A stretch of 64,000 nt of DNA. Source: Bacteroidia bacterium (GTDB taxonomy: Bacteria > Bacteroidota > Bacteroidia > NS11-12g > UBA9320). The stretch lies in the NCBI GenBank assembly GCA_020849295.1, contig JADLGN010000054.1, positions 1-64,000 on the forward strand, read 5' to 3'. Every line of letters starts with the position of its first letter. Within the stretch, counting starts at the first letter, position 1. A program made the position numbers and the translations under genes. Under the pieces are notes generated by a model that made no database searches, was not told the origin of the DNA, and saw only the letters and a list, made by a program, of their open reading frames with translations. This document shows positions 4,123-52,645 of this stretch, piece by piece.

Positions 4123-4863
4123 ATGCATGCTTTAGGTATATGTAATTTAAGTTGTATTTCTGTTAGAAAAGAACCATCTCATAGGTCAGAAATGGTTACT
4201 CAGCTTATATATGGCGAAAGTTATAATGTAATTTCTGAAAGTCAAGAATGGTTGCATATCAAATGTGAATTTGATAATTATTCGGGATACATTCCTTCAA
4301 ATCAATTTAAAGAATTTATTTATGAAAATACACCTTTATTATTTAGCGGTGATTTTGCTTGGGATGAAATAAATAATTTTATTCCCAAAGGTGCATACAT
4401 TTATAACAAAGAGACTTTAGTAGATATTGAAAACGATGAATTACTTGACTTTAATTTAATAAAATTTTCTGAAAATCAAATTAGAGAAAATATATTCAAT
4501 CAAAGTACATCAATGATTAATACACCTTATCTCTGGGGCGGTCGTACTAACTGGGGAATTGACTGTAGCGGTTTTACTCAAATAATATATAAAGTATGCG
4601 GAATAAATATTCCACGAGATGCAAGCCAACAGCAGCAAATAGGAAAAATAATAAACAATGAGGATTCTAAAATTGGTGACTTGGCTTTTTTCTGTAATGA
4701 GAATGGATTAATTACTCATACTGGTATTGTTTTAGAAAATAATACAATTATTCATTGCAGCGGTTTTGTTAAAGTTGATATTTTAAACCCTGACGGTATA
4801 TATTGTCACTTATCTAATACCAAAACTCACCATTTACATTCAATAAAGAAAATAATTACCTGA
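4123..4863 (+). CDS. SH3-domain NlpC/P60 (C40) cell-wall hydrolase
   Basis: This is a predicted peptidoglycan endopeptidase of 246 residues. The N-terminal half looks like a bacterial SH3 domain ('SVRKEPSHRSEMVTQLIYGE'). The C-terminal half is an NlpC/P60 domain with catalytic Cys148 in 'WGIDCSGF', His199 in 'THTGIV' and His211 in 'IHCSG'. I see no convincing signal peptide, so export may need another route or the start may be misplaced. C40 enzymes usually cut between D-Glu and the diamino acid of wall peptides, but the specificity here is inferred. The 3' end overlaps the convergent UbiA gene by 8 nt. Confidence 0.9.
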   Translation: MHALGICNLSCISVRKEPSHRSEMVTQLIYGESYNVISESQEWLHIKCEFDNYSGYIPSNQFKEFIYENTPLLFSGDFAWDEINNFIPKGAYIYNKETLVDIENDELLDFNLIKFSENQIRENIFNQSTSMINTPYLWGGRTNWGIDCSGFTQIIYKVCGINIPRDASQQQQIGKIINNEDSKIGDLAFFCNENGLITHTGIVLENNTIIHCSGFVKVDILNPDGIYCHLSNTKTHHLHSIKKIIT

Positions 4864-32132: not shown

Positions 32133-32140
32133 CAAAAATA
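32133..32140 (-). promoter_or_regulatory. -7 box for mfd
   Basis: The minus strand reads TATTTTTG and overlaps the track's TTG start. A minus-strand TTG occurs 17 nt upstream (32160-32158), slightly closer than the usual spacing. Confidence 0.45.
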
Positions 32141-32238
32141 ACCTAAAGTTGTCTTGACAAATATTTGAAAAAAACTTTTTTAAAATAATTTGAATTTTTT
32201 ATAAAATTATATTTATTTTGCAACCTCTAAAATAAAAA

Positions 32239-32430
32239 ATGATATTAGTTAACGTAAAAGAAAACGAGTCTTTAGATAAGGCGATTAAAAAGTTTAAAAA
32301 GAAGTTTGAAAAAACAGGAGTTGTAAGAGAATTAAGAGAAAGACAAGCATTTACTAAGCCAAGCATAAAACGCAGACAACAAATAATAAAAGCTTCATAC
32401 AAGCAAACTCTTCAAAGTAAAGAAAATTAA
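32239..32430 (+). CDS. rpsU: 30S ribosomal protein S21
   Basis: This is a small basic 63-residue ribosomal protein. 'VNVKENESLDKAIKKFKKKFEKTGVVRELRERQAF' is the family signature, and Lys/Arg-rich helices follow. A near-consensus promoter lies upstream (TTG at 32190-32192, then TATTTTG ending at 32220, one base short in the -7 spacer). The next gene, xerC, starts inside a hairpin that follows rpsU. The order rpsU-xerC-hpf is usual for Bacteroidota. Confidence 0.96.
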   Translation: MILVNVKENESLDKAIKKFKKKFEKTGVVRELRERQAFTKPSIKRRQQIIKASYKQTLQSKEN

Positions 32431-32460
32431 ATTTCATATTTAATAAAAAATATTGTAAAT

Positions 32461-32485
32461 TGCCCATGCTAATTTAGTATGGGCA
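32461..32485 (+). terminator. Hairpin after rpsU, overlapping the xerC start
   Basis: TGCCCATGCT and AGTATGGGCA pair around the loop AATTT with one G-U wobble (10 bp). It is followed by GTTTGTTTAT, a weak U-rich tract. The ATG of xerC (32479) lies in its 3' arm, so it may act as a terminator, as a translational gate, or both. Confidence 0.6.
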
Positions 32486-50896: not shown

Positions 50897-51346
50897 TTAC
50901 CATGTGTGGTCAATAAAAATTTTCCACTCATCTTTCTTTTTTCTTAAAAAAACAGAAAAATTTCCTCCGAAAATTGTATCATTCTTTAATTCCCAATTTC
51001 CATACACTTGAGCAGTATTTTTATTTAAAAATAAAATATCCATATTCTTAAAAGTTAATTTTCCCATACTGTTTTTATCAAAATAAGTTTTTTTATATTT
51101 CTCATAAACATTTTGCCAGCCCCAAGTTCTTCCTTTTCTAGTAATAAACTGTATTGAATCATCAAATTCATATCCTTTCATAAATTCTCTAAGGTTTCCT
51201 TTGTTCCACGCTTTATATTGTTTGTTTAGTACATTTAAAACCTCGCTTGAATCATCTTGAGAATTTATTTTGCATTTATTATAATCACAAGAAAAAAACA
51301 TAAAAGAAAATAATACAATTAATGTAAATTTTGAGAACTTAATCAT
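50897..51346 (-). CDS. NTF2-like (SnoaL/DUF4440-type) lipoprotein
   Basis: I start this gene at ATG 51346 rather than the track's TTG 51364, since the resulting N-terminus 'MIKFSKFTLIVLFSFMFFSC' is a standard lipoprotein signal peptide with a lipobox cysteine. The mature ~125 residues resemble the NTF2/SnoaL fold: 'VLNVLNKQYKAWNKGNLREFMKGY', then beta strands ending 'EWKIFIDHTW'. Such domains often bind small ligands; no catalytic role can be read. It is divergent from the OmpA-type gene across a 207-225-nt region that holds a terminator-like hairpin. Confidence 0.8.
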   Translation of the reverse strand: MIKFSKFTLIVLFSFMFFSCDYNKCKINSQDDSSEVLNVLNKQYKAWNKGNLREFMKGYEFDDSIQFITRKGRTWGWQNVYEKYKKTYFDKNSMGKLTFKNMDILFLNKNTAQVYGNWELKNDTIFGGNFSVFLRKKKDEWKIFIDHTW

Positions 51347-51418
51347 GTTGCTTTTTTGAAACAAATAAAAAAAACTTTATCAAATTGTGGAAAAATTTTT
51401 TTTTTAAAATTTTGTGGT

Positions 51419-51426
51419 TATATTTG
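51419..51426 (+). promoter_or_regulatory. -7 box in the 51.4-kb intergenic region
   Basis: TATATTTG matches TAnnTTTG. It lies about 60 nt before a strong terminator hairpin and about 145 nt before the OmpA-type gene. No TTG is found 19-21 nt upstream. Confidence 0.45.
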
Positions 51427-51430
51427 TTGT

Positions 51431-51520
51431 ACCCTTTGTGAAAAGGAAACATCGTAAGTAGTAGTTTAGTATTTATCTCAGAGCTTGGGTCCTGATGCAA
51501 ATCAGGACCTTTCTTTTTTA
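51431..51520 (+). ncRNA. Candidate small RNA or leader attenuator
   Basis: Between the -7 box and the terminator lie about 90 nt with a small stem CCTTT-GTGA-AAAGG near the 5' end and the terminator hairpin at the 3' end. No start codon with a plausible reading frame is visible. It could be an independent sRNA or the leader of the OmpA-type gene. I do not recognise it as 6S, SRP, tmRNA or RNase P RNA. Boundaries are estimated from the box and the U-tract. Confidence 0.4.
51488..51520 (+). terminator. Strong intrinsic terminator with GCAA tetraloop
   Basis: GGTCCTGAT and ATCAGGACC form a perfect 9-bp stem around a GNRA-type GCAA loop, followed by TTTCTTTTTT. It is the most GC-rich, canonical terminator in the window and acts on the plus strand. 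Confidence 0.85.
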
Positions 51521-51571
51521 TATAAAATTTCATTTTTTTTATGTTATTATTTATATTTTTATTTGTAGAAC

Positions 51572-52645
51572 GTGGTAAAGTTAAAATTGATTATATTTCT
51601 TATTGCTTGCTTTCCGACTATACTAAAATCACAAATTGAAAGTGATTCGCAACAACATGTATTAAATGTATATTTTAATAAAAACTCTGACAAACTAAAT
51701 GCTGAGGCTTTCTCAATAATAAGGAAAAATCTAATTGAAATTGGCACTCAAAATATCCAAAAAATAAAATTAAAGGGATTTGCAGATTCTGACCATACTG
51801 ATTCTTTTAATCTTGATTTATCTTCACGTAGAACAAAGAGCGTTTATGAATATTTACTTACTCAGGCGGTACCTACAGAATTGATAGAAATGGAATCATT
51901 AGGTGAATCAGTTTCAATTTCGGAGCAAAAAAGCTTGAACCGTAGGGTAGAGTTAATAATATTTTACAGATTGTTTAATATAAAAGTATATAAAAAAAAT
52001 ACACAGCTTGTAATAACTGGTAAAGTAATAAATAAACACACTTCAAATCCTCTCGCATCAACAATAGTAATTGAATATAATAAATTAACAATGTTTGCTT
52101 CTTCGGGAAGCAATGGAAAATTTATTATTAAATCAGGTAGTGGTTCTTTATTGACATTTAACAGAGATGGATTTTTAAATTCTTCTATTATTATAACTGA
52201 TTCACTCATTAAAAAATCAATAAATGACACTTTGTATCTTGATATAAAAATGACACCAATTGAGGTAACAGAAAAAATTGTATTCGAAAAAATATATTTT
52301 TACTCTGATTCTGATTCATTAAAGCCTGAAAGTAAAACTGATTTGCAAAGGTTGTTAAATATACTATCAAAGGACAATACATTACTTATCGAAATTCAAG
52401 GACACATGAACTGCCCTTTGTCATACCCACTTAATCATGTACAAAAAAAATACAACCACGAACTTTCATACAAAAGGGCAAAAGCAGTTTACAAGTATTT
52501 GATTAAAAATGGTATATCGGCTTCAAGACTAAGTTACAAAGGAATGAGTAATTTTAAAATGATTTATCCTCAACCAAAAAACGAAAAAGAAGCCGATAAA
52601 AACAAAAGAGTAGAGGTGTGGAAACTAAAGGTAATTGAACACTAA
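51572..52645 (+). CDS. OmpA-family protein with two OmpA domains
   Basis: This 357-residue exported protein has an unusual layout. After a signal peptide, residues ~26-130 form an OmpA-like peptidoglycan-binding domain ('YFNKNSDKLNAEAFSII', 'LSSRRTKSVYEYL', 'NRRVELIIF'). Residues ~146-225 resemble a carboxypeptidase-regulatory-like domain ('ITGKVINKHTSNPLASTIV', 'SNGKFIIKSG'). Residues ~240-355 are a second OmpA-like domain ('FYSDSDSLKPESKTDLQRLL', 'LSYKRAKAVYKYL', 'DKNKRVEVWKL'). No beta-barrel is present. It may tether the envelope to peptidoglycan. The start is GTG. The stop interlocks with the convergent MFS gene (CTAA). Confidence 0.85.
   Translation: MVKLKLIIFLIACFPTILKSQIESDSQQHVLNVYFNKNSDKLNAEAFSIIRKNLIEIGTQNIQKIKLKGFADSDHTDSFNLDLSSRRTKSVYEYLLTQAVPTELIEMESLGESVSISEQKSLNRRVELIIFYRLFNIKVYKKNTQLVITGKVINKHTSNPLASTIVIEYNKLTMFASSGSNGKFIIKSGSGSLLTFNRDGFLNSSIIITDSLIKKSINDTLYLDIKMTPIEVTEKIVFEKIYFYSDSDSLKPESKTDLQRLLNILSKDNTLLIEIQGHMNCPLSYPLNHVQKKYNHELSYKRAKAVYKYLIKNGISASRLSYKGMSNFKMIYPQPKNEKEADKNKRVEVWKLKVIEH

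Follow-up and report, generated by a model that had tools for sequence, protein, structure and literature searches.

The 64-kb window (the whole stretch of DNA analyzed) has a 207-nt gap at 51365-51571 between two divergent genes, a DUF4440-like gene on the minus strand and an OmpA-family gene on the plus strand (Table 1). An earlier note on this DNA ranked it as the second-largest tRNA-free gap, and so it is; among tRNA-free gaps between ORFs of at least 90 aa only the one at 32136-32478 (343 nt, no match in Rfam) is larger. As the flanking genes diverge, the terminator found in the gap does not end any upstream plus-strand gene; the next plus-strand gene does begin after the terminator, as had been claimed (the U-tract ends at 51519, the OmpA-family gene runs from 51572).

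Table 1. Features of the gap and its two flanking genes (coordinates in the window)
Feature	Coordinates	Strand	Evidence
DUF4440/SnoaL-like divergent neighbour gene	50897..51364	-	Weak PF14534 match just below curated cut-off; outside the RNA
Bacteroidetes -7 box TATATTTG, consensus TAnnTTTG	51419..51426	+	Sequence; same box at same hairpin distance in G001
Predicted small RNA, ~87 nt	51433..51519	+	Covariance-model matches in 16 family genomes; folding z = -4.3
5' hairpin CCUUU-GUGA-AAAGG	51433..51446	+	11 distinct family hairpins, 5/5 pairs covary
Conserved core, presumed seed	51450..51478	+	Almost invariant across family copies
17-mer AAGTAGTAGTTTAGTAT within core	51456..51472	+	Almost invariant
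Intrinsic terminator: 9-10 bp stem, GCAA loop, U-tract	51487..51519	+	Sequence; 5/11 pairs changed on both sides across family
OmpA-family neighbour gene, GTG start	51572..52645	+	PF00691; synteny; outside the RNA

The terminator stem GGTCCTGAT/ATCAGGACC with its GCAA loop occupies 51488-51509 (9 bp, or 10 with a closing G-U pair), and the U-tract TTTCTTTTTT follows directly on its 3' side, at 51510-51519. The -7 box claimed at 51419-51426 reads TATATTTG; 60 nt separate it from the stem, in agreement with the claimed order of -7 box, about 60 nt and terminator. The same note called this the strongest terminator in the window; its stem is indeed the longest among the 30 terminator-like sites that we found there. 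As a group, these sites are barely more frequent than in shuffled sequences; thus, the stem by itself proves little.

When 58 relatives were searched at the DNA level, the core turned up in further genera, next to the OmpA ortholog. With a covariance model built from 13 copies we saw homologs of the RNA in 16 of the 38 genomes of one uncultured Bacteroidia family (84-127 bits), spanning eight genera, with a patchy distribution; of the seven genomes in the window's genus, G000 and G001 carry the RNA and G002-G006 do not. No homolog was found by the model in the rest of the order outside the family (108 genomes). Three weak model matches in a sample of the class (395 genomes), in G140, G222 and G250 (39-42 bits), were rejected as terminators lacking the full core. 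The exact core, sought in one genome per species for 84,980 species, occurred in 14 stretches, all from uncultured Bacteroidota and only from the family of this RNA; viral contigs gave no exact match. These limits of distribution apply to the model, the pattern and the genomes searched. The Rfam scan called for in the earlier note matched no known family (Rfam 15, strict and permissive scans, nothing above a gathering threshold); judged by its sequence, the predicted RNA is a new family outside Rfam, though of a known kind, small regulatory RNA.

A lack of conservation beyond the hairpin in close relatives had been named in advance as an observation that would speak against the RNA; what we saw was promoter position, 5' hairpin, core and terminator conserved as one unit. 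Covariation analysis of homologous regions, also proposed earlier, gave changes on both sides at all 5 pairs of the 5' hairpin and at 5 of 11 pairs of the terminator. There are 11 distinct 5' hairpins in the family (e.g. CUUUC-GAGA-GAAAG, GUACC-GCAA-GGUAC and GUACU-GAAG-AGUAC), with a covariation score of 0.855 versus 0.327 in shuffles, none of which reached the observed value. Paired cells make up 96% of the hairpin alignment, a percentage favoured by the location of the hairpins via complementarity; the double changes and the fixed site beside the promoter should weigh more than this percentage. The hairpin register is fitted less well by G013. In the G016 copy, which may be decaying, the terminator is weakened and small lesions are present. 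Furthermore, the RNA segment folds much better than its shuffles (z-score in Table 1), and between G000 and G001 84 of 88 RNA positions are identical, versus 147 of 200 at the start of ompA.

Both ends of the predicted RNA were placed by inference, from the position of promoter and hairpin and from the U-tract. It is very likely, given this conservation, that a real RNA gene occupies 51433-51519 (+), and likely that the predicted RNA is a stand-alone one; of the two readings offered earlier, the stand-alone RNA of about 90 nt is thus the one that comparison supports. On the evidence of sequence it has its own promoter, its own terminator and a structure conserved independently of the next gene.

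The -7 box ends 6 nt before the 5' hairpin; at the usual spacing to this box no good -33 element was found in this genome. In the seven other genera, we saw sigma-54 elements, a -24 (TTGGCA-like) and a -12, located 12-17 nt before the hairpin, at a spacing that predicts a start at or just before it. The sigma-54 score summed over 15 copies was 144, versus 93±3.6 (maximum 103) in dinucleotide-preserving shuffles; individual promoters vary, those of G008, G015 and G018 being each only moderately unusual. This -24/-12 placement is absent from the window copy and from G001; in G000 and G001 the sigma-54 score is at chance, and the TATATTTG box is present instead. The rpoN gene was found in 56 of the 58 relatives, G000 included. 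Since the sigma-54 form spans seven genera, the housekeeping promoter would most simply be the derived state.

A search with the upstream inverted repeat, TGATnATCA + TGGCA, did not lead to further genes that have a fitting -12 element in noncoding sequence. A similar intergenic element, TTGATWATCA ... GTGGCATAAA ... AATTAGCGTTTATGGACGGATAAA, with no sigma-54 -12 element, was observed in G033:C56 near 39240 (L124) and in G058:C348 near 1899 (L134). G013 has a diverged second copy of the RNA (C9:7639-7737, minus strand, L060) with a near-consensus sigma-54 promoter, CTGGCACGTTACATGCA; it sits upstream of a gene for a 233-aa protein without Pfam match.

Between the 5' hairpin and the terminator the RNA is unpaired or weakly paired. 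The 17-mer located there is identical in all copies except for one T-to-C change in G016; the diverged second copy in G013 keeps it intact as well. Near matches to the 17-mer elsewhere were at control level and came without hairpin and terminator. A repeated GTAGTAG resembling part of the core, seemingly intergenic and also without hairpin or terminator, was seen in G013, G011 and G014 (L108, L110, L112).

The core is most likely the seed of a trans-acting sRNA, and action by base pairing is plausible. Our reading of 51433-51519 (+), which we consider probable with ample room for doubt, is that of an independently transcribed, trans-acting sRNA that would pair via its core with mRNAs, without Hfq. 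Near-complete complements of the core were found at control level only, and no consistent signal emerged from duplex energies with the start regions of genes nearby. The patchy distribution in the family, the absence of Hfq and, in this genus, that of RRM proteins also count against this reading.

One could also think of a stand-alone RNA whose core binds and titrates a protein, as RNAs of the CsrB type do, instead of pairing with mRNA; we rate this as unlikely. The core has repeated UAG/GUAG units, to be set beside GUAGGAUA, the reported preference of the RRM protein RbpB of Bacteroides (PMC12119571); the invariant 17-mer, more rigid and longer than most seeds, could be a protein site; and 29 of the 38 family genomes have RRM proteins. 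However, no RRM protein (PF00076) was found in the window's genus (seven genomes, G000-G006), nor in G007, while the 17-mer is unchanged in G000, G001 and G007; therefore, titration would need another protein, and these genomes argue that an RRM partner is not essential for the RNA. No Hfq was found in any of the 38 family genomes. The window's genus is without both known types of sRNA helper, Hfq and RRM; it seems to have lost them or never had them.

The other reading offered earlier, attenuation of the OmpA-type gene, gained no positive evidence. The RNA could be the 5' leader of ompA, with the terminator bypassed under some condition; it is on the same strand and, in 15 of the 16 genomes that bear the RNA, at a conserved site directly upstream of the same OmpA-family gene. 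Still, this linkage is broken both ways: G010 has two copies of the RNA and no ompA ortholog, and ompA is found without the RNA in many relatives (G002-G004, G006, G017, G019 and others). No competing anti-terminator fold was seen; hence, neither of the two marks of an attenuator, constant linkage to ompA and such a fold, was found. In several copies, though not uniformly, a TAnnTTTG-like box lies after the terminator and ahead of ompA, a hint that ompA has a promoter of its own there. All this makes the leader improbable. The two G010 copies are in tandem (C13, about 4135-4570, L009), each with its own sigma-54-like promoter.

A leader-peptide attenuator, built on the mini-ORF MVNNFHHK present in most genera, is strongly disfavoured and has very little probability left; ATGGTTAATAATTTTCATCATAAGTAG is open in many copies and the deletion in G007 is in-frame, but the frame is broken in G016, G000 and G001 lack the ATG and the second G013 copy reads differently, all while the nucleotides are conserved; nor does any amino-acid biosynthesis gene lie downstream. 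That the AT-rich gap encodes no RNA at all and its terminator arose by chance would fit the near-shuffle frequency of such sites in the window but is already refuted by conservation: covariation, the invariant core and homologs in eight genera.

Among known systems, the Vibrio Qrr sRNAs are about 100 nt long, often multicopy, have a strongly conserved core and act with Hfq. They are under sigma-54 control (PMC10162802), and the RNA described here, compared by description, resembles them as a predicted sigma-54-dependent sRNA of about 100 nt with a strongly conserved core, multicopy in some genomes; it differs in the absence of Hfq from all 38 family genomes and belongs to another locus and another phylum. 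Rfp36 of Flavobacterium psychrophilum, a putative regulatory RNA with a sigma-54 promoter (PMC9723704), offers a likeness within Bacteroidota; unlike Rfp36, also compared by description, our exact core was confined in the scan to the family of this RNA. In FopS and GibS of Bacteroides thetaiotaomicron, the former multicopy, an intrinsic terminator comes after a conserved single-stranded seed (PMC11697453). The same arrangement is predicted for our Bacteroidota RNA, which, unlike FopS/GibS, carries an additional hairpin at its 5' end, is preceded in most copies by a sigma-54 promoter and has no RRM partner of RbpB type in the window's genus (most other family genomes have RRM proteins); it has no Rfam match, and these scans are what the comparison with the R1 seed of FopS covers.

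If the RNA is a trans-acting sRNA, its transcription would begin at the 5' hairpin. Most family members would use sigma-54 polymerase and an activator for this, whereas this species and G001 would rely on the housekeeping sigma factor. Hairpin and terminator would shield the ends of the RNA, and the core would pair with target mRNAs near their start codons and so, with no need of Hfq, affect how stable they are or how well they are translated. The chaperone and envelope-stress genes of F. psychrophilum are under sigma-54, as is a putative regulatory RNA (PMC9723704); analogy to this regulon suggests a stress role for the RNA of our family. Given control by sigma-54 and an activator, a stress signal would probably be what induces the predicted RNA in the majority of family members. 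One could tentatively go further: the sRNA would belong to a sigma-54 stress regulon, and in one branch its control would have passed to the housekeeping sigma factor with no change to the 17-nt core; with no Hfq, and no RRM protein in the genus, it would have another partner or none. We regard this fuller picture as possible rather than probable.

To our knowledge, few Bacteroidota sRNAs have been characterized, and the best-known ones of Bacteroides are tied to an RRM protein. Comparative data define the RNA described here, which presents three contrasts found in nature: (i) a sigma-54 versus a housekeeping promoter ahead of the same RNA; (ii) RNA present versus absent in close relatives; (iii) RRM proteins present versus absent. 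Such contrasts make the control of this RNA, as well as sRNA action without Hfq or RRM proteins, directly testable.
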